DNA of 64,000 nt from IMG/VR virus record IMGVR_UViG_3300005613_000008, positions 1-64,000 of that record. One strand, given 5' to 3'. This DNA comes from a virus. Both the position numbers and the translations under genes were made by a program. Every line of letters begins with the position of its first letter. The first letter of the stretch is position 1. The notes below the pieces were generated by a model that was not told the DNA's origin, searched no databases, and saw only the letters and a program-made list of their open reading frames with translations. This document shows, one piece after another, positions 1,454 through 27,511 of this stretch.

Positions 1454-1621
1454 ATGAACAAGTCCAATAGCTTTATCGCTTCTATTTCACTAACATGTGT
1501 AGCGATAAACATTGGGCTTTTTCTTTTTGCTGCTTTAACATACCAAAATGATTTACAACTTCTTACACTATTTAATGTTGCATGTTTTTCGTTGTATTTT
1601 ATAATAATGGATATTAAATAA
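1454..1621 (+). CDS. Small two-helix membrane protein
   Basis: A 55-residue ORF beginning MNKSNSFIASIS. It has two hydrophobic segments, about residues 8-28 and 36-52, separated by a short polar turn ('TYQNDLQ'), so it should be an inner-membrane hairpin. GAGGG at 1442-1446 provides a ribosome site, and the stop codon overlaps the next start as TAATG. No family is recognised. Small membrane proteins of this kind in phages can act in lysis, superinfection exclusion or host takeover, but nothing here decides between them. Confidence 0.6.
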   Translation: MNKSNSFIASISLTCVAINIGLFLFAALTYQNDLQLLTLFNVACFSLYFIIMDIK

Positions 1622-2781
1622 TGTATCAAAAATTTTGGAATCAATTCTTATCAGAAAGTGAGCCTACATTTAATTTAGATAACGGCTCTACTAGGCAAAA
1701 CCAACAGATAATAAACTTGCCAAAAAGTTCTGAAAAATCCGAGCCAAAAGAAGAGCCTGATATTTCCTCAGCAACAGGGGTGGGCGCTTATTTGCTGGAT
1801 AAAGGCTTCTATCCAGACAAAGAGCTTGGTAAAGGTTTGGATGGTATCGTTGTTGGAGCCACCAACAAAAAAACTGGACAAAAAGTCGCTGTAAAGTTTG
1901 TACGACAAACTACTAAAGGCGATATGAACAGAGAAGCTAAAAATTATAAAATAATAAAATTAAAAAGAGATAAACTTGGTGAGTTTGCTAAACATTTTCC
2001 TGTTGTTTATTCTTCTAAAATAGAACAAGTTCCTGCTGATGGGCAGCCTTTGGATGGGCACAAAATACCGACAGCAGTTATTGTAATGGAGCAGTTAGAG
2101 CAGCTTCCAAAAGAAGTAGCCTTGGGGCTGTTTCCAACATCAAGATTTACTAGTAGCCCAGAAGCTGTAAAAAGTCGAGACGAACGTATTTTTAAAAATG
2201 ATAAATTAATAGAAGGAATGGTATCCATGGCTTTTGCTTTTTTGGAAGATTCAAATGCTTGGACTCCGCATCTTTCTGTGGATGCTGAACTTGAATTGGT
2301 TCCACAAATTATAAGTAATTTTAAAAATCTTAAAATTTCTATTCAAGAACCTCCTGGGTGGGATAAAGTTTTCAAAAGCAAGCAATCACTTTTTTTGGCT
2401 ACTCTCTTCATGAAACTCACTTACGAGAAAATGGTTGAGATTGCTCCCAACGAAGATGAAAAGAGTCTAGTTGTAGATTACGAGCAAAACATAAAGAAGA
2501 TTCTAATGGAGATTTTCTACAAGGCTTATTCTCGTTCTGTTGTCTCAGGCGCTGTCCAAGGCGCGGCAGCACCATATTCTGCTCTACGAGGCATGGATCA
2601 GTTTTATGGTCAAGAGGGAGAGATAGAAAAGTCATTCCCAGAATCAATAAGCATTCGCAAAGCAATGAAGGCACTTGGAATGGAAGGCTTGAAGCCTTTT
2701 GATGTTCACTCAGGCAATGTCATGATGCGCCCTAAGACAAAAGAAATAGTTATTGTTGATCTTGGTAGGTTCAAGACATGA
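1621..2781 (+). CDS. Protein-kinase-like protein with candidate capsid-targeting N-terminus
   Basis: A 386-residue protein. Kinase-fold signatures: a glycine-rich loop 'LGKGLDGIVVGA' at about 68-79, the VAxK lysine in 'KVAVKFV' near 90, a catalytic-loop-like 'FDVHSGNVM' (D-x-H-x-x-N) near 361-370 and 'VDLG' in the DFG position near 380. The last two sit only ~20 residues from the end, so the usual C-lobe after DFG is missing or rearranged, with a ~250-residue helical insert before it. The N-terminus MYQKFWNQFLSES matches a motif shared by three neighbouring proteins and resembles the T4 internal-protein capsid-targeting sequence, with L-S-E as a possible cleavage site. Start ATG 1621 is coupled to the upstream stop. 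Phosphotransfer activity is plausible but unproven. Confidence 0.65.
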   Translation: MYQKFWNQFLSESEPTFNLDNGSTRQNQQIINLPKSSEKSEPKEEPDISSATGVGAYLLDKGFYPDKELGKGLDGIVVGATNKKTGQKVAVKFVRQTTKGDMNREAKNYKIIKLKRDKLGEFAKHFPVVYSSKIEQVPADGQPLDGHKIPTAVIVMEQLEQLPKEVALGLFPTSRFTSSPEAVKSRDERIFKNDKLIEGMVSMAFAFLEDSNAWTPHLSVDAELELVPQIISNFKNLKISIQEPPGWDKVFKSKQSLFLATLFMKLTYEKMVEIAPNEDEKSLVVDYEQNIKKILMEIFYKAYSRSVVSGAVQGAAAPYSALRGMDQFYGQEGEIEKSFPESISIRKAMKALGMEGLKPFDVHSGNVMMRPKTKEIVIVDLGRFKT

Positions 2782-3233
2782 AACAAATAATGAATGAATG
2801 GAGAGAATTCGCGACAAAACGTAACAAAAGAGAAGTTGGCTCTTGTGTCATTGTTGATAACAAAGATAGGGTACTTATTCTCAAAAGATCAGCCACAGAC
2901 GATTGGAAACCCGGTTGGTGGGATCTTCCGGGTGGTCACCTAGATGGCGATGAAAAACCAATTGAAGGTGCTGAGAGAGAGGCAAGAGAAGAGAGCGGCT
3001 TGACTGTGAGAAACTTACAAAAAATAGAAACCCTAAACATGGAAAGCATCTTCAAACACTTCTTTGTAACAAGAGATTGGGACGGAGTAGTGAGACTGGA
3101 GGAAAATCCCGAGACTGGCGAAGTCGAACACGACGATTACAAGTGGGTAACTTTAGAAGAGTTACAGGATCTTAAACAATCAATAGTCTTGGAAGCAATC
3201 GTAAAGAAGGGACTGAATATTGTTCGAGTATAA
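2778..3233 (+). CDS. Nudix hydrolase
   Basis: A 151-residue Nudix protein. The Nudix box is intact: a Gly, then Glu after five residues, then 'REAREESGL' seven residues later (about residues 57-79), giving the metal-binding RE-x-x-EE core. Family members hydrolyse nucleoside diphosphates linked to another moiety, such as NAD-type, ADP-sugar, oxidised-nucleotide or capped-RNA substrates; the sequence does not decide which. The N-terminus MKQIMNEWREFATK resembles the candidate capsid-targeting sequence of its neighbours, though without the L-x-E cleavage site. It starts with an ATGA overlap with the kinase-like gene and overlaps the nuclease gene downstream. Confidence 0.88.
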   Translation: MKQIMNEWREFATKRNKREVGSCVIVDNKDRVLILKRSATDDWKPGWWDLPGGHLDGDEKPIEGAEREAREESGLTVRNLQKIETLNMESIFKHFFVTRDWDGVVRLEENPETGEVEHDDYKWVTLEELQDLKQSIVLEAIVKKGLNIVRV

Positions 3234-3552
3234 TGCGATTTGTACTAGAGTTATTGATGGAGATACCATCGATGCGAGAGTAGACCTAGGTTTCTCTGTG
3301 TGGATAGAGTGCAGGGTGCGTTTAGAGGGCATAGATGCCCCGGAGACCCGTACAAAAAACTTAGAGGAAAAGCAGGCTGGCTTAAAAACCAAGGCTTTTC
3401 TACAGGCGATTATGGACGAATGCGGGCATAAGTTTGTTTTGAAATCTCATGGCGTAGGAAAGTATGGAAGGTGTTTGGGGACTATTTACGTTGACGGCGA
3501 GAGCATCAATGAGCGATTGCTTGCCGAAGGATTAGCCGAGGAATACAGGTGA
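3220..3552 (+). CDS. Staphylococcal-nuclease-like (thermonuclease/TNase) protein
   Basis: A 110-residue single SNase domain. Hallmarks are 'VIDGDTIDARVDLG' (metal-binding Asp), 'RLEGIDAPET' (catalytic Arg and acidic residues), 'GKYGRCLGTIYVDG' (second catalytic Arg) and 'INERLLAEGLAEEY'. Known members are calcium-dependent nucleases acting on DNA and RNA. No signal peptide is visible, so it should act in the cytoplasm or be delivered with DNA. The TTG at 3220 overlaps the Nudix gene by 14 nt; no closer ATG keeps the full domain. Host DNA breakdown for nucleotide recycling is a reasonable role, but that is inference. Confidence 0.85.
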   Translation: MFEYNAICTRVIDGDTIDARVDLGFSVWIECRVRLEGIDAPETRTKNLEEKQAGLKTKAFLQAIMDECGHKFVLKSHGVGKYGRCLGTIYVDGESINERLLAEGLAEEYR

Positions 3553-5534
3553 AACTTTTGATGGAAAACTGGTATAGGTTCCTTGCAGAAGGAGGCAACG
3601 TTTTCAAGGGTGAAGCCGTTGGACCTATTCCGCTTGCGTCTATCCAGCCCACACTAGAACAATACTATGAAGAGTTATCGCGACTCTTCCCACAGCACAC
3701 ATCTAAGTTTTCCAACTTTACTCCATTAGGCTCTGTCGGTAAGAAAGCCAAGTCTGGCGACATTGATTTAGCTGTTGATGTTGAGGAAATGTTCCCACAA
3801 GGCAAGGTGACCGACGAAGACTTGCAAAGTTGGAACCTTGACCCTGCCGCATGGCGTGCAACCTATGAGAAGATGGTCAAGCGCGCTAGAATAGCCAAGC
3901 CAGCAGAGGTGGAGCTTCGTGCATTCTTGTATGAGATAGCAAAATACATTGGCGAGAACTCGCAGATAATCAAGACAGACCTAAAGAAAGTTCGTCCCGG
4001 TCAAATGTTCTCTCTATTTCCTCAAATCTCAGAGACTGGCGAACAACAAGATGTTGGTGTCCAGATAGATTGGATGATGGGAAACCGAAACTGGCTCAAG
4101 TTCTCCTACTTCTCGCCAGATCCCACAGAATCTCAGCCACTCTTGAAGGGGCTACACAGAACTCAGCTACTTTTGGCTATGTTTTTGGCGAAAGACCACT
4201 CGTTCAAGCATGTCGGTGGAGTTTTTGACCGCAAGACAGGCAAAAAGGTGGCTCACAGCCCCGCAGAGGCTATGAGACTGCTTGGAAAACTCTATTCGTC
4301 CAATGTGTCGCCTGAAATTTTTAATAGATTTGAGAGCGCGCTAGAGTGGTTAATGGACAATGCGTCAGAAGAAGATAGAAATAGAGCACTTGATGCTTAT
4401 TTAACAATTCTTGACCGCACAGCGGGTAACAAAGAGACCTTACCAAGCGGAGAAGAAAACCGATGCGGTTACATCCCACAAGAGTTGGAAGACTATTGGC
4501 TTCAAAACTGGAAGCGTCTTGGATTGAAGGGTAGCATTCTTTGTAAAACTGCGAATGATAGGCTCAGGGCGGCAGTTGAAAATGGAATGCTCGAAGAAGC
4601 AGTCACACCACGCATTGCAAACCTTGGAAATGCTGACATTGTAGCCTTAATTGATCTAATTCTTGGCAAAGAATCTGTTTTAGATGTGTCGGAGAAGCTA
4701 GCAGGACAAAATCTATCCGTCATTATAGATAGAGGCAATGTCTACACCAAATATAAGCAGCAACCAGACTTTATATATGCGCGCGAGCCGTTCAAATCTA
4801 TTTTTGCAAGGCACGAAGGTGATGGTAAATATACTTTTGAGATGATTTCTCCAGATGATCGTCCAGATTACGTCAATTATTTGACTGACAACACTATTTT
4901 TGTGGATTTTTCTGGACGGCTCACACCAGAAATGGCAAAATCTTTGTCCAATGACCAATATACTTTTATGACAAAGGGTCAGATCCGTCGCAATCAGTTC
5001 GATCTAACCGACGAACAGCGTCAAGAGTTGGTTGGTTTGCGTTCGAGAGCAGAAGGAAAACTTAGAAGTCATGATAAAAAAGAGATTGCGGAGCGTATCA
5101 AGGCAATTATCCTGTCTCCAAACGTCCAATCTGTTCTAGGTGGCGGAATTGAAGGGCTTTATGTCACTGGTGGAGAGAAGGATTTCAAGATTCCCAACCC
5201 AACCTACCAGAATTTACAGAAATTACAAGCTGGAATCTATGCTGTGCTCTCCGGTAGAGGAGGAATTCCCAAGAAAGTCGTCAAACAACGTATAATTGAC
5301 GGCGACGATAGCGATAGAATAATCCAAGACCTCCGCAGATTCCTATCATTTGCCCAAAACGACATACCTGTAGGCTATAGAATGTTTATTAGTCCCGAAG
5401 AAGCCATGGAACTTCTATCAAAGATGGATTCACCCGAAGGAAGAGAGCAAGTCTATGTATTTTTCAATAAGAGAATCAAGCAAAAAAAGAACTGGTATTC
5501 TCCTGAACAGCTTGAAGAAGCCAAGAAAGTATAA
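3549..5534 (+). CDS. Large nucleotidyltransferase-like protein with candidate capsid-targeting N-terminus
   Basis: A 661-residue protein starting at GTG 3549, overlapping the nuclease stop; ATG 3561 is the alternative. Residues ~60-80, 'LGSVGKKAKSGDIDLAVDV', form the GS...D-x-D core of pol-beta-type nucleotidyltransferases, with a helical region to ~330. The C-terminal part (~400-600) is not identified. It contains 'GLYVTGGEKDFKIPNP', which loosely resembles a ligase-type EG-x-V/K motif, but this is weak. The first residues MKLLMENWYRFLAEGG repeat the MK-x-x-M-x-x-W-x-x-FL-x-E motif of neighbours, with L-A-E as a possible prohead-protease site. It may be a packaged enzyme that modifies RNA, DNA or a host factor early in infection; the target is unknown. 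Confidence 0.65.
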   Translation: MKLLMENWYRFLAEGGNVFKGEAVGPIPLASIQPTLEQYYEELSRLFPQHTSKFSNFTPLGSVGKKAKSGDIDLAVDVEEMFPQGKVTDEDLQSWNLDPAAWRATYEKMVKRARIAKPAEVELRAFLYEIAKYIGENSQIIKTDLKKVRPGQMFSLFPQISETGEQQDVGVQIDWMMGNRNWLKFSYFSPDPTESQPLLKGLHRTQLLLAMFLAKDHSFKHVGGVFDRKTGKKVAHSPAEAMRLLGKLYSSNVSPEIFNRFESALEWLMDNASEEDRNRALDAYLTILDRTAGNKETLPSGEENRCGYIPQELEDYWLQNWKRLGLKGSILCKTANDRLRAAVENGMLEEAVTPRIANLGNADIVALIDLILGKESVLDVSEKLAGQNLSVIIDRGNVYTKYKQQPDFIYAREPFKSIFARHEGDGKYTFEMISPDDRPDYVNYLTDNTIFVDFSGRLTPEMAKSLSNDQYTFMTKGQIRRNQFDLTDEQRQELVGLRSRAEGKLRSHDKKEIAERIKAIILSPNVQSVLGGGIEGLYVTGGEKDFKIPNPTYQNLQKLQAGIYAVLSGRGGIPKKVVKQRIIDGDDSDRIIQDLRRFLSFAQNDIPVGYRMFISPEEAMELLSKMDSPEGREQVYVFFNKRIKQKKNWYSPEQLEEAKKV

Positions 5535-6994: not shown

Positions 6995-7327
6995 ATGGAT
7001 ATTATAGACCACATAGCAATAAAGGTTTCTGACCTAAAACTAGCAGAAACATGGTATTTGGGTCATCTTCATGCCGAAATCACCTTCAGAGACGAGAAAT
7101 ATATCCGTTTGAAGGTCGGTAACACAAACATAGCTCTTATAGACGAGAAATTCTATCCACATGAGCATATTGGAATCCTTGTGGAGAACTATGAAGACCT
7201 ACCTGACTTTGGACAGCGTGTTCAACATCGTGATGGGACTGTTGGTGTATATGTTAAAGACCCATTTGGTAACTACTTAGAATATATTTGGTACTCTCCA
7301 GAACAAAGTGAGACATTTCTCAAATGA
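6995..7327 (+). CDS. VOC (glyoxalase/dioxygenase-fold) protein
   Basis: A 110-residue single VOC-fold protein. It begins 'IIDHIAIKVSDLKLAETWY', the standard first beta-alpha-beta unit with a candidate metal His, and ends 'VYVKDPFGNYLEYIWYS', the typical D-P-x-G-N-x-x-E motif with a candidate metal Glu; 'HEHIGILV' supplies another His. Family members include glyoxalase I, fosfomycin-resistance proteins and ring-cleaving dioxygenases, and the substrate cannot be inferred. It starts one base after the preceding stop and overlaps the peptidase gene as ATGA. Confidence 0.8.
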   Translation: MDIIDHIAIKVSDLKLAETWYLGHLHAEITFRDEKYIRLKVGNTNIALIDEKFYPHEHIGILVENYEDLPDFGQRVQHRDGTVGVYVKDPFGNYLEYIWYSPEQSETFLK

Positions 7328-8193
7328 AAGACATCCTGCAACCCCTATTTAAACAGTTTATGCCATTTGCTCAAAAGAGAATGGGATTCAACAAACCGCC
7401 AAGGGTGTTCTTGCGAGATGACCATGAGAATGCTCAAAATCCATTGGGCAAGACTGCTTATTACGACCCAGAGCAGATGTCAGTTACACTTTACATCAAT
7501 GGGCGACACCCGAAAGATATTATGCGCTCTCTATCTCATGAGTTAGTGCATCACACACAGAACTGTAATGGTCAGTTTGACCACGTTGGTGAAATGGGAG
7601 AAGGCTATGCCCAAAATGATGAACATCTCCGTGAAATGGAGAGGCAAGCTTATGAACAAGGCAATTTGTGCTTTCGAGATTGGGAGGATAGCATAAAGGG
7701 CACTATTTACAATGAATCTTTGCAGAAAGGAGCAAAAACTAATATGTCTACTAAAGATTGGAAGAATAGAGAGCTACCAACTCTTCTAACAGAGAAGTGG
7801 GGCTTTTCATTTAATCTTCTTACTGAGTCTCAAGATGAAGAGGCACTCAATGAAGAGGAAGAAGAGATTGAGGAAGGTCAGTCTTCTTCTAGCCGCGAAC
7901 TAACCCCAGATCGTGAACAAAACGATGATCGTCGTTCTTCTACCAAAACTCGTCCAATGGAAGAGGGTGAAGATAAAAAGCCAGACGAAGATGGCGATGG
8001 TGTTCCAGACTATGCCGATAAAAAGCCCGGCAAAGATGATAACGAAGAAAAAGAAGAGAAGTCCGACAAAGATATGTCTAAGGTACCACCCCAGCTTCGT
8101 AAACATGTCAAGGGCAAGATGGATGAAGCTCAGATTCGTCAGCTAATCCGCAAACTTGTAAAAGAAGCAATGATCAAAAAGGAGACCAAGTAA
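7324..8193 (+). CDS. HExxH zinc metallopeptidase with acidic, Ca-binding-like tail
   Basis: A 289-residue protein. The N-terminal ~125 residues form a zincin-like domain with HExxH at residues 72-76 ('LSHELVHHTQ') and a downstream 'REMERQAYEQGN' helix that may supply the third zinc ligand. Residues ~170-260 are acidic and low-complexity and include 'DEDGDGVPDYADKKPG', a D-x-D-x-D-G loop like EF-hand or thrombospondin type 3 repeats. The C-terminus 'QIRQLIRKLVKEAM' is a basic amphipathic helix of a type also seen in the genes at 8714 and 9490. It could be a virion-associated peptidase. No signal peptide. Confidence 0.7.
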   Translation: MKDILQPLFKQFMPFAQKRMGFNKPPRVFLRDDHENAQNPLGKTAYYDPEQMSVTLYINGRHPKDIMRSLSHELVHHTQNCNGQFDHVGEMGEGYAQNDEHLREMERQAYEQGNLCFRDWEDSIKGTIYNESLQKGAKTNMSTKDWKNRELPTLLTEKWGFSFNLLTESQDEEALNEEEEEIEEGQSSSSRELTPDREQNDDRRSSTKTRPMEEGEDKKPDEDGDGVPDYADKKPGKDDNEEKEEKSDKDMSKVPPQLRKHVKGKMDEAQIRQLIRKLVKEAMIKKETK

Positions 8194-8713: not shown

Positions 8714-9493
8714 ATGTCTAAACTCTATAACAGCATAGACGAACTCATGCTTGAGCTGGAAGATGAAGATGGCGACCCCGTTGGTGGTCGCACTATCGCT
8801 ATTGTGCCCGGTGCTTTCAAACCACCACATCTGGGGCATTTAGATATGGTTCGCCAGTATGCCCAGCAAGCAGACGAAGTAGTTATTCTAATCTCTTCTC
8901 CACTCAAAGCAAGCAGGGGTGTAGGTGGTAAACCAATCACAGCTAGGCAATCTATGGAAATCTGGGAAATGCTTCTTGATGATGCTGGACTTCCGAATGT
9001 AAAGCTTGAAGTTTCTCCAAAGCCATCTCCAGTTACAGCAACATATGACTTCATCGATGAAGAAGGTCCATTAGAGCCTGGAATAAATGTGATTCTTGGT
9101 GCTAGCCAAAAGGGTGGCGATTTCAAACGCTGGAAGGGTGCTACAAAGTATGTTAAATCAGGTGTGAACTTGCTCCCTCCAGAAGAAACAGCCGTAGTTC
9201 CAGCCAACAGACCCTCTGGGGAGCCGTACAGTGCCACTGACGCTCGCAAAATGTTAGAGCAGGGTGAGAACGCCGATGAGTTTTTTGGAGACGGCAGAAC
9301 CGATTCTGTGAGATCTGTGCTTGGTCTTGAATCACTAGACGAGATGTTTGCCATGGCTGGTGGTGCTATCCAAGGATACGGAGCGCCGCTTGGTATGAGA
9401 AAAAGAAGAAAGAAGAAACAAAGTGAGTACAATGAGTTATACTTATACAAAGAAGTTTTGAAACTACTTATGAAGGAAGGAATAGTCAAATGA
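8714..9493 (+). CDS. HxGH-family nucleotidyltransferase (cytidylyl/adenylyltransferase-like)
   Basis: A 259-residue protein with a clear Rossmann nucleotidyltransferase domain. 'VPGAFKPPHLGHLDMV' (about residues 31-46) holds the HxGH ATP/CTP site, and 'PYSATDARKML' (~173-183) matches the (S/T)-x-x-x-R signature of the class that includes NMN adenylyltransferase and phosphopantetheine adenylyltransferase. Substrate specificity cannot be read. Non-standard parts are an acidic N-terminus ('ELMLELEDEDGD') and a basic C-terminus ('MRKRRKKK') ending in an amphipathic 'LYKEVLKLLMKEGIVK'. GGAG lies eight bases before ATG. The extensions suggest it is bound to a particle or complex, perhaps a virion component. 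Confidence 0.75.
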   Translation: MSKLYNSIDELMLELEDEDGDPVGGRTIAIVPGAFKPPHLGHLDMVRQYAQQADEVVILISSPLKASRGVGGKPITARQSMEIWEMLLDDAGLPNVKLEVSPKPSPVTATYDFIDEEGPLEPGINVILGASQKGGDFKRWKGATKYVKSGVNLLPPEETAVVPANRPSGEPYSATDARKMLEQGENADEFFGDGRTDSVRSVLGLESLDEMFAMAGGAIQGYGAPLGMRKRRKKKQSEYNELYLYKEVLKLLMKEGIVK

Positions 9494-10309: not shown

Positions 10310-10657
10310 ATGAAGAAGAGAAGATCAAAATATAAATACAAGAGTGTTGTAAATAAGTTATTAGATAATAATATTTTAAATGAAAGTAATCTAACATTCA
10401 TTGATAGTATGACTTTAGAAGATTTGATTGCTGTTAAGTTAGAGCTTTCTGCAAGACACATTAATAATAAACTTTATGCTTTTAATCTATTATCTAATAC
10501 TAATAGACTAGTTAAGGAAGCAATAATTAAATTTGCTATCAGTGCTACTCAATCTAAGGTGGATGCAGCTAGATTCCTTGGAATCGATTACGAAGGTCTG
10601 CGTAAGTTAGTAAATGAGTATGGCTTGCAGGATTATTTTAATGAAATTAATAATTGA
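10310..10657 (+). CDS. Fis-type helix-turn-helix protein
   Basis: A 115-residue basic protein beginning MKKRRSKYKYKSVVNKLL. The C-terminal ~45 residues, including 'ATQSKVDAARFLGIDYEGL', match the Fis/HTH_8 pattern: a helix, then an A-A-x-x-L-G-I turn and a recognition helix. It should bind DNA and act as a transcription regulator. The middle is helical and may dimerise. It sits directly behind a host-like promoter whose predicted transcription start coincides with its ATG, which fits early expression from a leaderless message. Its regulatory targets are unknown. Confidence 0.7.
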   Translation: MKKRRSKYKYKSVVNKLLDNNILNESNLTFIDSMTLEDLIAVKLELSARHINNKLYAFNLLSNTNRLVKEAIIKFAISATQSKVDAARFLGIDYEGLRKLVNEYGLQDYFNEINN

Positions 10658-11333
10658 AAACTTCAGAAGATTCTTGACAGAACAAAATTTTATTTCTGAG
10701 TTTCCATTGGAACAAGATGAAGAAGGCAACATTATTCTTTATCATGTTTCTGGAGCAGAAGACATTGAAGAACTAGACCCTGATGTTGCTGCAAGGAATC
10801 TAAAGAACTACACCCAACAAGAATACAGAAGTTGGGACAGACCTAGGGTTTTCTTTTTTACTCGTCTCGGACAAGAAGACACGGGTATTGGAAGGATTGA
10901 TGGTGTCCCCTATCGTGTTAGGTTGAGACCAAATCAACTCTATCCAATTATAGATGACCCAGCAGGACTATCATCCAAGCAAGAACAACAGAATTGGATG
11001 GAAGCAAACATACCTGAGTTTGCAGAGAAGATGCAAGAAGCACAGAAGTGCTCGTCTTCAGAGCAATACAATCAGTGGCACATCTGCACCAAGACACCAG
11101 ATTCGGATGGACTCTACTACACAAATGAGCGCCACGCAGGCAAGACTCTGATGGTGGATAATCCTAAGTTCCATCATCTCAAACCAAACACATATGAAAT
11201 GGTTGCACAACTAGCAGAAGAACGTTATAATAGTATAGGATTCATTTACCCACAGAGCGGGGATCAAAACAATCAGATTGTTGCTTTGTGGCGTAAGGTT
11301 CCAGCAGAGAGATTAGAACAAGATTTCTACTAG
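10641..11333 (+). CDS. Uncharacterised protein with candidate capsid-targeting N-terminus, possibly ADP-ribosyltransferase-like
   Basis: A 230-residue protein. ATG 10641 gives MKLIIENFRRFLTEQN, the fourth copy of the MK-x-x-x-x-x-(W/F)-x-x-F-L-x-E motif, with L-T-E as a possible cleavage site; it overlaps the regulator gene by 17 nt. The body reads 'NIILYHVSGAEDIEEL', then 'PRVFFFTRLGQEDTG', then 'YRVRLRPNQLYPIIDDP'. This order of a His-containing strand, 'fF' strand and 'Y-x-V/L' strand is reminiscent of some ADP-ribosyltransferase-fold toxins. That is weak evidence, and no complete R/H-S-E triad can be confirmed by eye. Confidence 0.5.
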   Translation: MKLIIENFRRFLTEQNFISEFPLEQDEEGNIILYHVSGAEDIEELDPDVAARNLKNYTQQEYRSWDRPRVFFFTRLGQEDTGIGRIDGVPYRVRLRPNQLYPIIDDPAGLSSKQEQQNWMEANIPEFAEKMQEAQKCSSSEQYNQWHICTKTPDSDGLYYTNERHAGKTLMVDNPKFHHLKPNTYEMVAQLAEERYNSIGFIYPQSGDQNNQIVALWRKVPAERLEQDFY

Positions 11334-11814: not shown

Positions 11815-11902
11815 TTTTTATTTTTAACTAATAAGAATCTTAGTACTATTGACTAGTTAATAAGAGTTGAGACATTTTGTATGTACACTCTTATTGACTA
11901 TT

Positions 11903-12853
11903 ATGTTTAACAAAGTTAATTTATTATTTTTATTCTTATTCTCATGCGTAAATGAATTTATAGTAGCACCACAAAAGATTATCGAAGTAGAAGCTGTATT
12001 AGAAGATTCAGCGCCTCCGATTCTTGTGGAATCTTTAGAAACTGAAGTTGTTATTGATTATTTTGAGCAACCAATAAAGCCAGAAGCTTTGGATGTTCTT
12101 GTCGTTCTTGATACCTCTTGTTCAATGAGAGATGATTATGAAAAGCTTTCTATTGGTTTAGAGTTGCTTAGAGAAGATATAGAACTTTTGACACACGATT
12201 ATCAAATAGGGATCATAAATTCTTCTTTGGCTTATAATGACTCTAAGCCATATTTTATTGGACCTTTTGATAGGAACACAAACTCGATAGACCTGCTGTT
12301 AGCACCAGCGATTTTATTTAGCGACTTTTATGAAGTAGCATTTCAGTCACATTATCAGTTTGCAACCTCAACAAGTGAAGGAGTTCAATTCCTTAGAAGT
12401 GGTGTAGATAAAATGATAATCTATATCAGCGACGAGAACGAACAAAGCATTATTCCTGTTTCTACATTTAACCAGTGGCTTGAAGATTACCACCAAGATG
12501 TACAATATGATGTTGTTTCGATCGCAATTGTGCCGACTTCTGACACTAGTTGTGCTTATTCTCCAAGCGATATTGGAGTTAGATATCAAGAACTAATGAA
12601 CTATTACAACAAGAATGTTATAGATTTTTGTGGTGATTGGCAACTAGCTTTGGCAGATAGTAGTTTTTTGTTATCTGAGACTACTCATCTAAAATTATCC
12701 AAAATTCCAATAGAGGACTCAATTGTTGTTTACCAAGATGGTATAGAAGAAAATATGTGGTATTACTTACAATCAACCAATACTGTATATTTTGAGTTCC
12801 CAATGAATGAGGGGGCAGTAATCAAAGTCGGTTACGACTCTGTAGTAAGATAA
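11903..12853 (+). CDS. Secreted vWA-domain lipoprotein
   Basis: A 316-residue protein from ATG 11903; an upstream TTG at 11867 is possible, but the ATG gives a clean signal. MFNKVNLLFLFLFSC is a short lipoprotein signal peptide with a lipobox-like F-S-C at the cleavage site. Residues ~60-250 form a von Willebrand A domain: 'VLVVLDTSCSM' supplies the MIDAS D-x-S-x-S, and 'MIIYISDENE' is the later vWA strand. The C-terminal ~70 residues ('SIVVYQDGIEENMWYY' onward) resemble the extra beta domain of bacterial secreted vWA proteins. It should be anchored in the host envelope. Rare in phages; envelope remodelling or superinfection exclusion is possible. Confidence 0.75.
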   Translation: MFNKVNLLFLFLFSCVNEFIVAPQKIIEVEAVLEDSAPPILVESLETEVVIDYFEQPIKPEALDVLVVLDTSCSMRDDYEKLSIGLELLREDIELLTHDYQIGIINSSLAYNDSKPYFIGPFDRNTNSIDLLLAPAILFSDFYEVAFQSHYQFATSTSEGVQFLRSGVDKMIIYISDENEQSIIPVSTFNQWLEDYHQDVQYDVVSIAIVPTSDTSCAYSPSDIGVRYQELMNYYNKNVIDFCGDWQLALADSSFLLSETTHLKLSKIPIEDSIVVYQDGIEENMWYYLQSTNTVYFEFPMNEGAVIKVGYDSVVR

Positions 12854-19571: not shown

Positions 19572-20561
19572 ATGTTAGCAGAATATATCTGGGTTGATGG
19601 TTCTTCGCCATACCGCCTGCTAAGAAGCAAAACTAAAGTTTTTGAAGAGAAGCCTGAAGAGTTTCCATTATGGAACTTTGATGGCTCTTCTACAAATCAG
19701 GCTGATGGAGACAATTCAGATTGTGTTCTTCGCCCTATTTTTGTTTGTGATGACCCACTGCGCTATGATTCAGTTTTGGTTCTTTGTGATGTTTTGACTC
19801 CCGACCTAGAACCACACCATTCCAACACCAGAGTCTTCGCTCAACAGGTAGAAAGTGAATATAGCGAACAAAAAGCTCTATTTGGATTAGAACAGGAATA
19901 TACCATTTTCAAAGATGGTCGCCCTCTAGGTTTCCCTTGGGGTGGATATCCAGAACCGCAGGGGAAATACTACTGCTCCGCAGGGGGCGGGCGTGTGTTT
20001 GGTAGAAAGATCATAGAAGAGCATCTTGAGCTTTGTCTCAAAGCAGGATTGAAAATTAGTGGCGTCAATGCAGAGGTTATGCCCGGTCAATGGGAATTTC
20101 AGATTGGACCTCTCGGAACAGTTGCGACTGGTGACCACCTAACTGTGGCTCGTTATCTCTTAGAACGCATTAGTGAAAACCATGGTGTTGAAATTAGTTA
20201 TGCCGCCAAGCCTATGCCTGGAGACTGGAATGGTGCTGGGTGTCACGCTAACTTCTCAACATTAGCAATGAGACAGTCTATTGAGGCTTGCGAGGATGCC
20301 TGCCGTGCTCTTGGTGAGAACACAGAAGAGCACATTCGCAATTACGGTCACGACATCGAATCAAGACTAACAGGTGCTCACGAAACTTGCTCTTACAAGG
20401 AATTCCGCTGGGGAGTGTCTGATAGAACTGCTTCTATCCGTATTCCTTGGGGAGTGGCGAAGGCAGGCAAAGGTTACATTGAAGACCGACGACCCAATGC
20501 TGATTGTGATCCTTACCTAGTTTGCGGTCTTATCTTAAGAACAGTTATGGAGTATAGATGA
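19572..20561 (+). CDS. glnA: Glutamine synthetase, type II (GSII)
   Basis: A 329-residue protein with the type II (eukaryotic-like) signatures: 'WNFDGSSTNQA', 'LFGLEQEYTIF' (metal-binding E-x-E), 'GVNAEVMPGQWEFQIGP', 'GAGCHANFS' (nucleotide/ammonia site) and 'SDRTASIRIP'. It catalyses glutamate + ammonia + ATP to glutamine. GSII is shorter than the bacterial ~470-residue GSI and is not controlled by adenylylation, so it could escape that host control. It lies at the head of a glycan cluster that ends with GlmS, a glutamine consumer. A viral GSII is unusual; it was probably acquired from a cellular source. Confidence 0.93.
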   Translation: MLAEYIWVDGSSPYRLLRSKTKVFEEKPEEFPLWNFDGSSTNQADGDNSDCVLRPIFVCDDPLRYDSVLVLCDVLTPDLEPHHSNTRVFAQQVESEYSEQKALFGLEQEYTIFKDGRPLGFPWGGYPEPQGKYYCSAGGGRVFGRKIIEEHLELCLKAGLKISGVNAEVMPGQWEFQIGPLGTVATGDHLTVARYLLERISENHGVEISYAAKPMPGDWNGAGCHANFSTLAMRQSIEACEDACRALGENTEEHIRNYGHDIESRLTGAHETCSYKEFRWGVSDRTASIRIPWGVAKAGKGYIEDRRPNADCDPYLVCGLILRTVMEYR

Positions 20562-21838
20562 CTAAAAAGAAAATTCTGGTCTTATCTGACCATCCCCTAT
20601 CACCTTCTGGTGTAGGAACACAAACAAAGTATATGATAGAAGCACTGCTGAAGACCGGACGCTACCAGTTCGTTTGTCTCGGCGGCGCTGTCAAACATAA
20701 AGATTACACACCACAACGGGTTGAGCCTTGGGGTGATGATTGGCGTGTTTTTCCAGTAGATGGTTATGGAAATCACGAGATTATCCGTTCCATTCTTCAG
20801 AAAGAACGACCAGATGTCCTGTGGTTTATGACCGATCCTCGCTTCTATGGCTGGCTTTGGGAGATAGAAAATGAAGTCCGTGCGAACATTCCTATGGTCT
20901 ATTACCATGTTTGGGATAACTTCCCCGCACCACAATTTAATGCTGATTTCTACAACTCCACAGACGTTATTGCTTGTATTTCAAAAGTTACACATGAAAT
21001 CGTTCAAGAAGTTGCGCCCGACGTTCAGTCCTGCTATCTTCCACACGCGGTAAACGAGGAGTTCTTCCACCCTGCTAGAACTGAGCAGGAAGAACATGCA
21101 GTAAGAGTAATGAGACAGCGCGTAATAGATTCCTCAAGAACTAGAAATCCAAATAAAAAGATTTTCTTCTGGAACAACCGTAATGCCCGCAGAAAGCAGA
21201 GTGGCACTCTTATTTGGTGGTTCAAGGAATGGCTTGATAAAGTTGGGCACGATAAAGCTTCGTTACTCATGCACACAGATCCGCGAGATCCACATGGACA
21301 GGATCTTCCACACCTTATCAGCCATCTAGGTCTAAATAATGGTCAGGTACTTCTATCAACAAACAAGATACCATCAGAAGAGCTAGCAAACCTTTACAGA
21401 ATGGCTGATTACACAATCAATATCTCTGATGCTGAGGGTTTTGGTCTTGCCACTCTTGAGTCGCTTTCTTGCGGAACTCCAATCATCGTAAATATGACTG
21501 GTGGTCTCCAAGAGCAGGTAACTGACGGTAAGAACTGGTTTGGTTTTGGTATTGAGCCTTCCTCTAAAACAGTTATTGGTTCTCTTCAAGTTCCTTATAT
21601 TTACGAAGATCGTATCTCACAAGGGGATTTCGAGAAAACCATGACTAAAGCACTCAAAAATCCTACAAAGAAATATCGCCAAATGGCTTCACAAGGCAGG
21701 AAGCATGTGTTAAAATCATACAACTTTGAGACTTTTGAGAAGTCTTGGGTTGAACTTATGGATCAAGTCACTACTGAAATGGGTTCTTGGGATACAAGAA
21801 CTGGTTATGATAGATGGCGTCTAATGGAGGTTGCGTGA
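20558..21838 (+). CDS. GT4-like glycosyltransferase
   Basis: A 426-residue GT-B glycosyltransferase. The N-terminal half begins 'ILVLSDHPLSPSGVGTQT', a glycine-rich acceptor-side loop. The C-terminal half carries 'NISDAEGFGLATLESLSCGTPIIV', the E-x7-E nucleotide-sugar motif of family GT4 (cut short of 20 residues: 'DAEGFGLATLESLSCG'). It should use a nucleotide-activated sugar in the cytoplasm. Start ATGA overlaps the glutamine synthetase stop, linking nitrogen assimilation and glycan genes in one unit. Donor and acceptor are unknown. Confidence 0.87.
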   Translation: MTKKKILVLSDHPLSPSGVGTQTKYMIEALLKTGRYQFVCLGGAVKHKDYTPQRVEPWGDDWRVFPVDGYGNHEIIRSILQKERPDVLWFMTDPRFYGWLWEIENEVRANIPMVYYHVWDNFPAPQFNADFYNSTDVIACISKVTHEIVQEVAPDVQSCYLPHAVNEEFFHPARTEQEEHAVRVMRQRVIDSSRTRNPNKKIFFWNNRNARRKQSGTLIWWFKEWLDKVGHDKASLLMHTDPRDPHGQDLPHLISHLGLNNGQVLLSTNKIPSEELANLYRMADYTINISDAEGFGLATLESLSCGTPIIVNMTGGLQEQVTDGKNWFGFGIEPSSKTVIGSLQVPYIYEDRISQGDFEKTMTKALKNPTKKYRQMASQGRKHVLKSYNFETFEKSWVELMDQVTTEMGSWDTRTGYDRWRLMEVA

Positions 21839-23070
21839 AAAAGAAAGTTTTACTCAAGGGTCCGCTCCTAACCCGTTCTGGTTATGGCGAGCAGGCTCGT
21901 TTTGCTCTTCGGTCTTTGCGTTCTCGCGAAGACCTATTTGAAGTGTTTATTCAGCCACTACAGTGGGGAAAGACTTCTTGGGCTTCTGATATGGATGAAG
22001 AACGTGTCTGGATTGATCAAACTATCGAAAAGACGATTGCCTTTATTCAACAGGGTGGTCAGTTTGACCTTTCTCTACAAGTAACCATTCCAAACGAGTT
22101 TCAACGACTTGCGCCAATCAATATTGGCTACACTGCTGGTATTGAGACAACAAAGGTTGCTCACCAGTGGATTCAGAAAGCAAATGAGATGGATAAGATC
22201 ATCGTTGTGTCTTCTCACTCCAAGCAAGTGTTCGAGAACACAGAGTATCAGGCAACTAACCAGCAAACAGGCGAAAATGTAACCCTAAGAACACAGACTC
22301 CTGTTGAAGCTGTTGGTTATCCTGTAAAGACCTTTGAGAGCCTTCCAAAGCTTGATCTAGAACTCTCAACCTCATTCAACTTCCTCACAGTTGCCCAGTT
22401 TGGTCCGAGAAAGAACCTTCTAAACACCATCAAGTGGTTTATTGAAGAGTTCCGAAATGAAGATGTCGGTCTTGTTGTAAAGTCCAACATTGCAAAGAAC
22501 TGCCTTATGGATCGTAATCGCCTATATGGTGATTTAACCAAGTTTATTAGAGAACAGGGAGAGAGACAGTGCAAGGTATTCCTCCTACACGGCGATATGA
22601 CTGACGCCGAAATGCACTCCTTGTATCAGCATCCACAAATCCATGCATTTGTCTCTCTCCCCCACGGTGAAGGCTTTGGTCTTCCTCTATTTGAAGCTGC
22701 ATACTCAGGTCTACCAGTAGTCGCTACAGGCTGGTCTGGGCAGCTTGATTTTCTTACAGATGCCAATGGTCGAGAACATTTTTACAATGTAGCCTTCGAC
22801 CTACAACCCGTCCAGAAAGAGGTTGTTTGGGATGGGGTAATCGTCCCTGACTCTATGTGGGCTTATGCCCGCGAGACTTCCGCAAAGGAACAGATGCGTG
22901 CTTGCTTTGAACAGACAACAGGCAATGCAGACACGAATTTGCGACTAAATGATTATGCCCAACAACTATGGGAACGCTTCTCGCCAGACGAAATGTATGA
23001 TAGGTTTGTTGGTGAGATAGAATCTGTTTTTCCAGAAAACACCTTGATTGATTTGGAGTCAATGCTTTGA
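21835..23070 (+). CDS. GT4-like glycosyltransferase
   Basis: A 411-residue protein from GTG 21835, chosen because GGAGG lies just upstream; an in-frame ATG at 21814 is less well placed. It begins MKKKVLLKGPLLTRSGYGEQ and has a GT-B C-terminal domain with 'LPHGEGFGLPLFEAAYSG', the E-x7-E motif. It resembles the previous gene in plan, and the two could be a diverged duplication. It overlaps the previous gene by 4 nt and the next by 4 nt. Likely one step of ordered sugar addition. Confidence 0.85.
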   Translation: MKKKVLLKGPLLTRSGYGEQARFALRSLRSREDLFEVFIQPLQWGKTSWASDMDEERVWIDQTIEKTIAFIQQGGQFDLSLQVTIPNEFQRLAPINIGYTAGIETTKVAHQWIQKANEMDKIIVVSSHSKQVFENTEYQATNQQTGENVTLRTQTPVEAVGYPVKTFESLPKLDLELSTSFNFLTVAQFGPRKNLLNTIKWFIEEFRNEDVGLVVKSNIAKNCLMDRNRLYGDLTKFIREQGERQCKVFLLHGDMTDAEMHSLYQHPQIHAFVSLPHGEGFGLPLFEAAYSGLPVVATGWSGQLDFLTDANGREHFYNVAFDLQPVQKEVVWDGVIVPDSMWAYARETSAKEQMRACFEQTTGNADTNLRLNDYAQQLWERFSPDEMYDRFVGEIESVFPENTLIDLESML

Positions 23071-24140
23071 GGCTCGGCTTTGTAAGCGACTTTTACGCCC
23101 CTTCAATCGGCGGCACGCAGATTCTAGCACAAAGTTTGTGTGAGGGTTTTGCCGATCTTGGTCATGAGGTAGAGGCTATCACCACCCCTGATTCAAGTCG
23201 AGAACACAATAAATACTCTTACAAGATTCACGAAGTAAGTGGAATCAATTTCACAAACTCAGACTTCTTCCTTGTTCAGAACTATGATGCTGTTTTCGTT
23301 CTTGCTGATTTATTTTCTCCAACTTTGAAGACAATCAATCCTGGCGACACTCGTAAGAGCATACTTATCTTAAATCTGGACGAGAATGTTTATCGCTGGA
23401 TTCATGAGGGTAGAATCCCCAATGTCCAGCAGATTGTAGAAAAGATAAAACTTTACACTCATGTCGTTTCCTTTTGTAAGGGAGCACCTGTAAACAAGTT
23501 TCTTGAAGAGAATGGGATAGAATACTTATTTATTCCAAACTTTACTAGAGACACACAAGAGACTCCTAAGCCACCGATTCACATTCGTAATGCCCTCAAG
23601 TTAGGAAACAAGAAGATTATCTTCAATCACGGTTTGATCGAAGATAGAAAGAATCAGTTATCTTTGATTCAGAGCTTTGCTGCTTCTGGACTTAGAGAAG
23701 ACCACACTCTTGTTCTTCTCGGCTCTCCACGAAGTGCTTCTGATAATGCTTATCTCTCACAGATTAACTCTATGATTGAAGAACAGGGGCTCTCCGAGTG
23801 CGTCAAGATGGTGAAAGGAACCAATAACAGAGGTCTCATAGATCTTCTGCTTTGTTCTGCGGACATTTATGTTCTCCCATCAAAGGCAGAGGGCTTGCCG
23901 CTTGTTTTGCTTGAGGCTATGTCTGCTGGGTTGCCTTGGATTTCTACCCCTGTTGGTGGTGTGCCTGAAGTTTTTGGACCGCTCCAAGGCGGTGTGGTGC
24001 TCCCACAAATAGCATTCACAGCGGAAGAACTAGAATCCGCAGTCCGCTCTGTTGAACGAGGACATTCACGTCGCGAATGGTCCGAGAACTTTACAAAAGA
24101 AAAAGCACTTGAACGCTATGGGGCATTATTAAATGACTAA
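23067..24140 (+). CDS. GT4-like glycosyltransferase
   Basis: A 357-residue GT-B protein with a TTG start at 23067 (TTGA overlap). The N-terminus 'LGFVSDFYAPSIGGTQILA' is the classic Gly-Gly acceptor loop, and 'LPSKAEGLPLVLLEAMSAG' is the GT4 E-x7-E nucleotide-sugar site. It is the most typical GT4 member of the three adjacent genes. It ends with an 8-nt overlap with the next glycosyltransferase. Sugar specificity unknown. Confidence 0.88.
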   Translation: MRLGFVSDFYAPSIGGTQILAQSLCEGFADLGHEVEAITTPDSSREHNKYSYKIHEVSGINFTNSDFFLVQNYDAVFVLADLFSPTLKTINPGDTRKSILILNLDENVYRWIHEGRIPNVQQIVEKIKLYTHVVSFCKGAPVNKFLEENGIEYLFIPNFTRDTQETPKPPIHIRNALKLGNKKIIFNHGLIEDRKNQLSLIQSFAASGLREDHTLVLLGSPRSASDNAYLSQINSMIEEQGLSECVKMVKGTNNRGLIDLLLCSADIYVLPSKAEGLPLVLLEAMSAGLPWISTPVGGVPEVFGPLQGGVVLPQIAFTAEELESAVRSVERGHSRREWSENFTKEKALERYGALLND

Positions 24141-24744
24141 AGCATTTGTTTGTCTATTGAGTTGTGAGAAATATTCTTACAAGAGAGAACAGCAGAACAT
24201 TCATGATTTGGGGATCGATTATCGATACTTTATAGGCGACCCTTCTCTAAGTAATGCGAGAGAGGCTGGTTCCATAGTTTATCTACCATGCCCAGACTCA
24301 TACGAATACCTTACTCATAAGACTTTGCAAGCATTTCGCTGGATGGAAGATAATATAGAAGCAGAGTTTTATTTTAAGACTGATGATGACACCATGTTCG
24401 ACAAGGAGCAGTTCTTACTTTTATTGCAAGAAGTAGAAAATAACAAAATTCAATACGGAGGAGAATTACATCCCGGTGGTGTAATGTCTGTTCATCACTT
24501 TGGTAAGTGTGAAGATGAAAGGATAAACAAACAGAGATTTTATGTTCCAAACATAGTCTATGTAAAGGGTGGCGGCTATGTCTTATCCAGAGATTCTATT
24601 TCTTTGATAAACAAAACAAAAAATAAAAAAGACTACTTTTGTATCTATGAAGATGCTACAATAGGAAACATACTTAATCAACACGGAATAACTCCGAAGC
24701 CATTACAAATACGAAAGGCTTTTAATTGGGATGTGATAAAATGA
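24133..24744 (+). CDS. GT31-like (galactosyltransferase-type) glycosyltransferase
   Basis: A 203-residue GT-A-like protein. 'FYFKTDDDTMFD' supplies the D-x-D metal/nucleotide-sugar motif, 'VKGGGYVLSRDS' is the acceptor-side Gly-rich loop and 'IYEDATIGNIL' matches the E-D-x-x-x-G motif, together the pattern of beta-1,3-galactosyl/N-acetylglucosaminyltransferases (GT31). This family is common in eukaryotes and giant viruses and less so in phages. It overlaps both neighbours, continuing the coupled series. Confidence 0.78.
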   Translation: MTKAFVCLLSCEKYSYKREQQNIHDLGIDYRYFIGDPSLSNAREAGSIVYLPCPDSYEYLTHKTLQAFRWMEDNIEAEFYFKTDDDTMFDKEQFLLLLQEVENNKIQYGGELHPGGVMSVHHFGKCEDERINKQRFYVPNIVYVKGGGYVLSRDSISLINKTKNKKDYFCIYEDATIGNILNQHGITPKPLQIRKAFNWDVIK

Positions 24745-25457
24745 ATGATAGAAATGTTTTTGTTTATTGGGAAGGAGATATTCCTCCATTGATTTCTATC
24801 TTAAGGGATCTAATTTATAAATTTTCTAATAATGAAAAAAACTATAAAGTTATTTTTTTAAATGATAAAAATATTAAACAGTTTATTGATTTAGAGCCAA
24901 ATTATTGGAAACTTGCAGTTAATCATAAATCTGATTTTATTAGAGCAAAAGTTGTTTTTAAGTATGGAGGAATTTGGCTAGACAGCGACACTTTAGTCAT
25001 GAGTGATCTTGGGCAGTTATTTGAGATCTTAGAAAGCAAAGAAGGTTTTTTGATAAAAGAAAATAACAAAATTATTTGTACTGGTGTTTTTGGAGCAAGA
25101 AGGGGCAGTAATTTTCTAAAAGAGTGGATAGACAGAACAGAGGTAGCAATTAAAAAAGACAACTTATCGTGGTCTGAAATTGGGCCATTCATGGTTGATT
25201 CTATTTTTAGAAATACTGAGCTTTGTAAAAACTTTACTATTTTTAATGGTTTAGATACGATGTATCCAGTAAATTGGGATCAATGTCCGAAAGAGTATTT
25301 ATTGAATAATGATATCAATAAAATAAAAAAAGAGTTTCAGCCACTAGTAGTTTTGGTGAATTCTGTCTATAAACAAACTTCTAAAATGTCAAAAAAAGAA
25401 ATTATTCATATGAATAATAATTTAGGTTTTTTACTGAGAGAAGCAATTCAAAGATGA
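24741..25457 (+). CDS. GT32-like (DXD) glycosyltransferase
   Basis: A 238-residue protein from ATG 24741 (ATGA overlap). 'FVYWEGDIPPLI' at the start, 'SDFIRAKVVFKYGG' and 'GGIWLDSDTLVMSD' (D-x-D) in the middle are the signature of capsular-polysaccharide/Och1-like transferases with the 'R...L...GG-x-Y/W-x-D-x-D' core. It probably adds a hexose or amino sugar. From here to about 26670 the DNA is visibly more AT-rich than the flanking glycosyltransferases, suggesting separate acquisition. Confidence 0.8.
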   Translation: MNDRNVFVYWEGDIPPLISILRDLIYKFSNNEKNYKVIFLNDKNIKQFIDLEPNYWKLAVNHKSDFIRAKVVFKYGGIWLDSDTLVMSDLGQLFEILESKEGFLIKENNKIICTGVFGARRGSNFLKEWIDRTEVAIKKDNLSWSEIGPFMVDSIFRNTELCKNFTIFNGLDTMYPVNWDQCPKEYLLNNDINKIKKEFQPLVVLVNSVYKQTSKMSKKEIIHMNNNLGFLLREAIQR

Positions 25458-26038
25458 ACAACTATTTTACACAAAAAATAAAAGTTTCTACAATTTTCAA
25501 TAGGATAAACAGATTTGAATATTTTAAACAAATTTGTAGAGATAAAAAAGTTCTTCATGTCGGTTTTGTTGATTATCCGATAACAAATAAAAATCAAAAT
25601 ATGCATCTAATGATTGACAGTGTTGTTGAAGAATTGGTAGGAGTTGATCCAAATTTTGAAAATTTTGCAGAATTTGAGAAACTTCTCATCAACAAAAGAA
25701 TGCATAAGACACTCATAGAAGTGCAAAATGAATATTTTGATATTGTAATAGTGCCTGAAGTAATAGAGCATGTTGGAAATATGCAAGAATTTATTGAAAA
25801 TTTATCAAAATTAAATTTTAATAAGATGTATATTACTGCTCCAGATGCATTTCTTTTAAGTAGAAATGTTTCGTATGATAAATTAAATTCAATAGTAACT
25901 GAAATAGTACACCCAGATCACAATTGCTGGTTTTCTCCGTACACACTAAAAAATATTGTTCTTAAATACTCAGATTTAAAATTAGATGAAATGTTTTATG
26001 TGGGTGGCAATTCTATAGTTGGAGTCTTTGAGAAATGA
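25454..26038 (+). CDS. SAM-dependent methyltransferase-like protein
   Basis: A 194-residue class I methyltransferase-like protein. 'KKVLHVGFVDYP' is a motif I with one of its glycines replaced, 'ELVGVDPNFEN' is the acidic ribose-binding loop after strand 2, and 'FDIVIVPEVIEHVGNMQEF' matches the post-motif 'D/P-V-x-E-H' of methyltransferase_11-type proteins. It may methylate a sugar of the glycan assembled by neighbours. AT-rich. Coupled to both flanking genes by ATGA overlaps. Confidence 0.7.
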   Translation: MNNYFTQKIKVSTIFNRINRFEYFKQICRDKKVLHVGFVDYPITNKNQNMHLMIDSVVEELVGVDPNFENFAEFEKLLINKRMHKTLIEVQNEYFDIVIVPEVIEHVGNMQEFIENLSKLNFNKMYITAPDAFLLSRNVSYDKLNSIVTEIVHPDHNCWFSPYTLKNIVLKYSDLKLDEMFYVGGNSIVGVFEK

Positions 26039-26673
26039 AAATTCTAACTTATATCCATATACCTAAAACAGCAGGAACCTCAATTAAGCATTCGATATCA
26101 CAAGAGAAATTTTTTGCATATAGTGGACATAATAGGACTCCAAATCACAATTTAGAACACTTTGTTGTTTTGCGAGAACCTGTTGATAGATTTTTAAGTG
26201 CGATATGGTATAGTTATTATAATGACAAGACTTGGAGAGGTGCTGATGATTTAATAAGATCGGGGCTGAGTACTCCAAATGATTTTTTAGATGTGTGCTT
26301 TGATAAAACGCATAAGTTGTATAACTTATGTCAAATAGAGTTTTCTAACAACAACAACCACTATGTTGATGGAAAAAAAATAAGCAGATCTTGGATTTAT
26401 GAGGAACAAATACTTTGGTGGAATAAGCCAAAACATATAATTCTTTTTCAAAATTTAGAAGAAGAATTAAAAAAAATAAAATTAGTAATTCCTCATAAAA
26501 ACAAGGCAATAAAAAGTCCATATTGTTTAAATGAAGAACAACACAAATCAATAAAAGAAATGTATAAAAATGATTATAAGTTGTGGTCTTATTGGTCTGA
26601 GATTTGCTTTAAAGAAAGAAAGAATATAAACTGGGATAAACATAAAGATTTTTTATTAAAAATAGCTAAATAA
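26035..26673 (+). CDS. Sulfotransferase (heparan/chondroitin-type, Sulfotransfer_2-like)
   Basis: A 212-residue protein. 'YIHIPKTAGTSIKHSI' near the N-terminus is the 5'-phosphosulfate (PAPS) loop typical of carbohydrate sulfotransferases, and 'VVLREPVDRFLSAIWYSYY' is the 3'-phosphate-binding strand-helix. It should transfer sulfate from PAPS to a hydroxyl or amino group of a glycan. It sits in the same overlapping run as the methyltransferase and glycosyltransferases, which supports glycan sulfation. Strongly AT-rich. No PAPS synthesis genes are in the window, so host PAPS would be needed. Confidence 0.8.
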   Translation: MKILTYIHIPKTAGTSIKHSISQEKFFAYSGHNRTPNHNLEHFVVLREPVDRFLSAIWYSYYNDKTWRGADDLIRSGLSTPNDFLDVCFDKTHKLYNLCQIEFSNNNNHYVDGKKISRSWIYEEQILWWNKPKHIILFQNLEEELKKIKLVIPHKNKAIKSPYCLNEEQHKSIKEMYKNDYKLWSYWSEICFKERKNINWDKHKDFLLKIAK

Positions 26674-26674
26674 A

Positions 26675-27511
26675 ATGAAAATACTAATCACTGGACATAA
26701 GGGCTACATTGGTAGCAAACTATTTGAAAAATTGAATGATGGAATCAACATTGTTCATGGCTTAGATTTAAAAGATGGCAGAGACGTACTCCATCATTTG
26801 CCAAATACGAGTTATGACTATATATTTCATCTCGCAGCATTCCCCAGCGTACAGCAGTCAGTTAAGCACCCCTCAGATACATTCAAAAACAATGCTTACG
26901 CTACATCTGTCCTGTTAGAATGGGCAAAAAATCATAATGTAAAAAGAGTTATTTTTTCTTCCTCTGCTGCCGCTTCCGATGTAACATCACCCTACGGACT
27001 TCATAAGAGAATCTCAGAGCAAGAGTGCAAGCTTTATTCTGAACTCTACGGATTAGATACTGTTTGTCTTCGCTATCATAATGTCTATTCCGAAGATCAA
27101 ATCTATGGTGGCTCTTATTCCACAGCGATAAGCGCTTGGATGCAGATGATTCGGGAAGGTAGAGAACTTCGTATAGATGGAGATGGAGAACAGACAAGAG
27201 ATTTTGTACATGTTGATGACATTGTATCTGCTAACATTTTTTGTATGAACCAAGATAAGCCATTTGCTGGCGCAATACATGACGTTGCTAGCGGTGTTTC
27301 ATACTCTCTAAATTCAGTTAGAAAAGTAATTGATAGAAACCATAATGTAACTTGGATCCAAAATCCAGAAAGAAAAGGCGACATTAAACATTCACATTCG
27401 GACATTTCTGGGTTATTATCTCTTGGATGGAAGCCGTCTGTTACAATAGGAGATGGTTTGCAAAGATGTTTTTCAAAGGATAATCTATGTGTGGAATCTT
27501 TGGCTCAGTAG
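26675..27511 (+). CDS. NAD-dependent sugar epimerase/dehydratase (SDR extended)
   Basis: A 278-residue extended SDR. 'ILITGHKGYIGSKLFE' is the G-x-x-G-x-x-G NAD site, 'IFHLAAFPS' follows strand 4, 'VIFSSSAAASD' holds the catalytic Ser and 'SPYGLHKRISE' the Y-x3-K pair; 'RDFVHVDDI' is the conserved sugar-epimerase segment. It likely epimerises or dehydrates a nucleotide sugar such as UDP-glucose, UDP-GlcNAc or GDP-mannose. It is a little short for the family (~310-340). It overlaps GlmS by 25 nt, consistent with amino-sugar supply. Confidence 0.88.
   Translation: MKILITGHKGYIGSKLFEKLNDGINIVHGLDLKDGRDVLHHLPNTSYDYIFHLAAFPSVQQSVKHPSDTFKNNAYATSVLLEWAKNHNVKRVIFSSSAAASDVTSPYGLHKRISEQECKLYSELYGLDTVCLRYHNVYSEDQIYGGSYSTAISAWMQMIREGRELRIDGDGEQTRDFVHVDDIVSANIFCMNQDKPFAGAIHDVASGVSYSLNSVRKVIDRNHNVTWIQNPERKGDIKHSHSDISGLLSLGWKPSVTIGDGLQRCFSKDNLCVESLAQ

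Follow-up and report, generated by a model that had tools for sequence, protein, structure and literature searches.

We propose, with a probability of roughly 0.6, that a T4-like phage of bacteria packages a minimal protein kinase in its head and injects it for immediate takeover of the host. The candidate is the 386-residue product of an open reading frame with an ATG start and a TGA stop (Table 1), found in a window of 64,000 nucleotides, the whole stretch of DNA analyzed here, which belongs to a 127-kb virus record of IMG/VR. Judged by its sequence, this product is very probably a kinase, and its packaging in the head appears likely. Kinases lacking a C-lobe are already known; the interesting part is the probable delivery route, together with the set of enzymes defined by a short N-terminal tag. 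This tag, absent from the original prediction, is a more informative feature than the catalytic loop at the C-terminus. It is common to unrelated neighboring genes and resembles the packing tag of T4, so that the kinase is probably injected together with the DNA.

The original prediction had placed a glycine loop near residue 68 and a VAxK lysine near residue 90, as well as D-x-H-x-x-N (~363) and DLG (~380) close to the C-terminus. All of these are in place, as L69-G75, K92, D361/H363/N366 and D380-G382, after which the chain stops with R-F-K-T. The opposite strand holds no long frame in register. A scan of IMG/VR viral contigs recovered three full-length relatives with 41-55% identity and two distant ones with 23-24%. 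In the six homologues D361, H363, N366, D380 and G382 are invariant, down to an identity of 23%; the motif pattern is thus not a product of chance, and such invariance across six members is what a functional kinase should show. The likewise invariant E105 would pair with K92. Scanning the viral contigs for the GNVMMRP pattern returned none beyond the five relatives, a family profile search of bacterial and archaeal genomes gave no match, and named phages yielded catalytic-loop matches only and no full-length close relatives.

Table 1. Features of the kinase gene and of tagged neighboring genes, in window coordinates.
Feature	Position	Strand	Basis
Kinase gene, catalytic loop at extreme C-terminus	1621..2781	+	ORF, motifs, conservation
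Capsid-targeting-like propeptide MYQKFWNQFLSE, residues 1-12, predicted cut after E12	1621..1656	+	Conservation, shared pattern
Variable low-confidence linker, about residues 13-45	1657..1755	+	pLDDT <50 (residues 1-47), alignment indels
Glycine loop L69-G-K-G-L-D-G75	1825..1845	+	Sequence, alignment; G72 and G75 invariant in six homologues
ATP-binding lysine K92 (VAVK)	1894..1896	+	Invariant in six homologues
E105, candidate alpha-C glutamate	1933..1935	+	Invariant; inside predicted helix 102-125
Hinge M156-E-Q-L-E-Q-L-P163	2086..2109	+	M156, E157, L159, P163 invariant
Poorly conserved helical insert, hinge to catalytic loop, about residues 172-338	2134..2634	+	Alignment, model
Catalytic loop D361-V-H363-S-G-N366	2701..2718	+	Invariance; match to gp0.7-type kinases
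Metal-binding D380-L-G382 (DFG equivalent)	2758..2766	+	Six residues from D380 to stop
Nudix hydrolase overlapping kinase stop, tag-like N-terminus MKQIMNEWREFATK without L-x-E	2778..3233	+	PF00293, E 2e-20
661-aa tagged protein (KLLMENWYRFLAE), possible nucleotidyltransferase motif GSVGKKAKSGDIDL / GSVGKKAKSGDIDLAVDV	3549..5534	+	Tag scan; motif by eye
Tagged protein MKLIIENFRRFLTE, ADP-ribosyltransferase-like LYHVS stretch	10641..11333	+	Tag scan; stretch by eye, putative

At the N-terminal side, Pfam Pkinase (PF00069) matches residues 66-104 with E 5e-4, its 19.9 bits staying under the gathering cut-off of 31.7, and solved Ser/Thr kinases align in the N-lobe with a profile built from the six members (E 9e-7). 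For the C-terminal catalytic part, the search gave PHROG 18305, annotated "kinase" (E 4.6e-8), and profile-profile comparison aligns the catalytic loop with T7 gp0.7-type kinases (probability 95%, E 3.5e-8). Weak Pfam matches to FTCD, Spo16_C and LpqN were taken as chance. The protein shares the N-lobe and the catalytic motifs with PF00069, but after DFG it has no activation segment, APE motif or C-lobe helices.

A catalytic loop in this position is unusual among kinases at large and known in phage kinases, as the gp0.7 group and the polyvalent proteins demonstrate. The gp0.7 group (PHROGs 2828, 15752 and 18305, including the DLP_6 and Cd1 kinases) shares the glycine loop, the lysine and D-x-H-x-x-N, the last likewise about 17-19 residues ahead of the metal-binding Asp, and its kinase domain likewise stops 3-36 residues past this Asp if no extra domain follows. 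The 188-aa kinase of Stenotrophomonas phage DLP_6 ends three residues past its TD, 12 and 10 residues follow the TDP Asp in the kinases of Caulobacter phage Cd1 and Brevundimonas phage Babayka, and a 226-aa gp0.7-type relative on contig L024 runs on for 36 residues past the DFG equivalent. In T7 gp0.7 itself, D195-x-H197-x-x-N200 and D213 are followed by a separate shut-off domain, and the N-terminal domain, of about 30 kDa, has Ser/Thr kinase activity (PMC4858673). Unlike gp0.7, the kinase described here carries a helical insert, a DLG in place of TDP and the N-terminal tag, and it lacks the C-terminal transcription shut-off domain. Matches to the gp0.7 family span only the C-terminal 30-50 residues and not the whole kinase domain; as far as sequence can tell, the protein is related to this group and is not a member of it.

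C-lobe-less kinase domains have also been described in injected phage polyvalent proteins, in which the C-terminal subdomain is lost, the active-site residues are kept and injection with the phage DNA is likewise predicted (Iyer et al., 2017, PMC5512222). In those kinases an insert separates the conserved His from the Asp (PMC5512222); the two residues are 17 positions apart here (H363-D380) and 16 in T7. The polyvalent-protein kinases occur mainly as parts of large proteins with several domains, encoded by prophages of Verrucomicrobia, Chlamydia and Bacteroidetes, whereas here a single kinase domain makes up the gene product. The earlier suggestion of a new kinase-fold family consequently survives in one half: conservation, profiles and the model agree on a kinase without a post-DFG C-lobe, and the novelty of the fold falls away in view of the gp0.7 group and the polyvalent proteins (PMC5512222).

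The large insert between the lobes was also correctly noticed, at a size of ~250 residues that has to be reduced to ~165, since the distance from the lysine to the catalytic Asp is 269 residues here and 102 in T7 gp0.7. Across the kinase family this distance amounts to 269-283 residues; it is 102-106 among T7-like members and 121-128 for DLP_6, the L024 kinase and a second kinase-like protein described below. The insert is missing from both T7 gp0.7 and the L024 kinase. AlphaFold modeling of the full-length protein from four sequences gave low confidence. A second run, with the first 45 residues removed and seven sequences, reached a mean pLDDT of 82 and a pTM of 0.76, with a well-formed N-lobe whose blocks lie mostly at 82-95. 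Fold comparison, which the original prediction had proposed as its check, gave a divided answer: Foldseek matched solved protein kinases with E 3e-5 and probability 1.0, but at a global TM of just 0.2-0.3 and a large rmsd, and for this reason we use these matches as support for the kinase N-lobe only. The model supports an N-lobe arranged as in kinases; the inserted helices possibly stand in for the C-lobe, and the insert could bind substrate or lend support to the active site.

At its N-terminus the kinase begins with an aromatic-x-x-F-[L/I]-x-E pattern that ends in an L-x-E protease motif. Among the four closer homologues 10 of the first 12 columns are invariant, against 3 of the next 48. 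Similar starts are found in the neighboring Nudix gene and in the tagged genes at 3549 and 10641. The expression [WF]xx[FY][LIVMAT]x[EDK], by which we recognized the tag from pattern and position, occurs within the first 17 residues of 8 of the 123 genes of the phage's own record and at 11 of 37,888 positions elsewhere, a 13-fold enrichment at N-termini whose p value of 2.5e-6 is optimistic because the expression was written after examples had been seen. When five related contig stretches are included, 30 of 204 genes carry the tag; they fall into 18 groups without BLAST similarity outside it, most of them with L/I/V/M-x-E at the same place, and their unrelated bodies include the Nudix hydrolase, an S-adenosylmethionine (SAM) lyase and a second compact kinase-like protein. 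A tagged gene at 80930-81388 closely precedes the one for the gp21-type prohead protease. The tag is not uniform: its commonest form, MKLLLENWRKFLTE, opens runs of adjacent genes in the related contigs and differs from the MYQKFWNQFL of the kinase, and the distant homologues on L008 and L009 read FRRFTEGE, without L-x-E, as the Nudix neighbor in the window reads FATK. The ORFs at 7324-8193 and 114128-114892 follow the pattern only loosely and are probably not tagged.

In T4, the internal proteins IPI, IPII and IPIII as well as Alt likewise carry a short N-terminal leader. For IPIII, ten N-terminal residues are enough to bring the protein into the head, and cleavage by gp21 falls after L/I-x-E (PMC9026906). 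IPII and IPIII start with MKTYQEFIAE, an aromatic-x-x-F-I-x-E leader with the same spacing as the tag and an L/I-x-E protease site as here, and the other T4 genes tested do not match; IPI is packaged without the pattern, which is thus neither necessary nor proven sufficient. The machinery has its counterparts in our record, which encodes a gp21-type prohead protease (81897-82355; PF03420, E 1.2e-31) and gp23 (91844-93394; PF07068, E 5.5e-61). Two points set the T4 system apart: IPI, IPII, IPIII and Alt include no kinase, and their leaders are shorter than the commonest tag in our set (MKLLLENWRxFLxE).

A tagged SAM lyase of the anti-restriction type at record positions 122461-123093 has 19 relatives in IMG/VR, and in the 16 checked an EWxxFLxE- or FINE-type tag is present in all but the two most distant, in one case with an extra residue; in T7-like phages, genes for a SAM-degrading enzyme and a kinase are also neighbors in the early region. 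The second kinase-like protein with a tag (217 aa) occurs in two related contigs (L002:708-1361 and L004:913-1566), is absent from the window's record and has a 35% identical relative at 87065-87751 (G002:C1) of the contig of L003. Its motifs GSGAFRVVFK, VIKLSK, DLGYGNIG and LDAS, with a catalytic loop nine residues from the end, carry the assignment as a kinase, since a Pfam search gave no match. The body of the 3549-5534 product found no convincing library match, and a library search with that of the 10641-11333 product was without match. Tagged genes at L004:2020-2472 (YYHS) and L008:991-1419 (LYHGT) are suggestive of ADP-ribosyltransferases, again with no convincing library match. On L024 (1025-2555), a Nudix-like gene, the gp0.7-type kinase and a third gene start with MKLEELFEKK, MKLYELVGVKK and MKLFEILSKK; these starts may represent another tag, again with a kinase paired to a Nudix gene.

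Elsewhere in the window, inspection by eye revealed a metabolic and glycan block at 19572-29307 (a glutamine synthetase-like gene, several glycosyltransferases, a sugar epimerase-like and a GlmS-like gene) and, at 11867-12853, a signal-peptide-like start with the von Willebrand A-type motif VVLDTSCS. The products of 7324-8193, metalloprotease-like (HELVHH), and 8714-9493, cytidylyltransferase-like (PF01467), share similar Leu/Lys-rich C-terminal helices.

Alternative explanations of the kinase differ in when, or on what, it would act. It could be a gp0.7-type minimal kinase that is made after infection and never packaged, its tag serving as a regulatory leader, for example, or as a helix that docks onto a partner from phage or host. 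T7 gp0.7, the closest characterized relative, is indeed an early gene product, and the tag of the distant homologues has no L-x-E cut site. We nevertheless regard this as rather unlikely, as the tag is also found on unrelated proteins, including the product of the gp21-adjacent gene and the anti-restriction SAM lyase, and has the spacing and the cut motif seen in T4 internal proteins.

Less likely still is a kinase-fold enzyme that acts on a small molecule or nucleotide, or a pseudokinase regulator. D-x-H-x-x-N is the form found in aminoglycoside-phosphotransferase-like kinases, which speaks for this reading, and so do the weak match of the ABC1 atypical-kinase profile to residues 360-384, the absence of the usual substrate-binding C-lobe and the Nudix hydrolase gene whose ATG overlaps the kinase stop codon, an overlap also kept in the related contigs L002, L008 and L009. 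A pseudokinase is disfavored by the invariance of all catalytic residues, and against the small-molecule reading stand the N-lobe profile, which matches Ser/Thr protein kinases, and T7 gp0.7, which also has D-x-H-x-x-N and phosphorylates proteins (PMC4858673). The short C-terminus is the sole point in favor of a C-lobe lost by frameshift, stop mutation or assembly error, the outcome that would have undone the original prediction. This explanation is refuted by the homologues and its probability is close to nil: all five, on other contigs, stop 6-16 residues past the same Asp, and in several of them the start of the next gene overlaps the kinase stop.

We thus return to a packaged protein kinase as the preferred reading. 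The N-lobe would bind ATP, with the chain ending after the catalytic loop and the metal-binding Asp; the 12-residue propeptide would take the kinase into the prohead core, where the gp21-type protease is predicted to cut after E12; and the mature kinase, injected with the DNA, would phosphorylate host proteins at once. T4 Alt acts on the host by ADP-ribosylation. T7 gp0.7 phosphorylates host proteins after its synthesis, and the kinase described here is proposed to arrive preformed. A literature search, with most subscription journals outside its coverage, found no capsid-targeted protein kinase described. At about even odds, we further speculate that one portable N-terminal tag loads the heads of T4-like phages with unrelated host-takeover enzymes, that the kinase, as one of them, arrives ready-made together with the genome, and that the tag reveals further injected effectors. 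The proposed set would possibly comprise two kinds of C-lobe-less kinase, the Nudix hydrolase, the SAM lyase and perhaps ADP-ribosyl- and nucleotidyltransferases.

Altogether, if this proposal is true, phosphorylation of host proteins starts on DNA entry, ahead of phage gene expression, with precedents for injected action in the ADP-ribosylation by T4 Alt and in anti-restriction internal proteins. With the tag as a simple criterion, injected effectors of uncultured T4-like phages could be listed from sequence. The kinase family adds an example in which the catalytic residues persist although the post-DFG lobe is missing; its conserved members are structural targets for the question of how small a working kinase can be.
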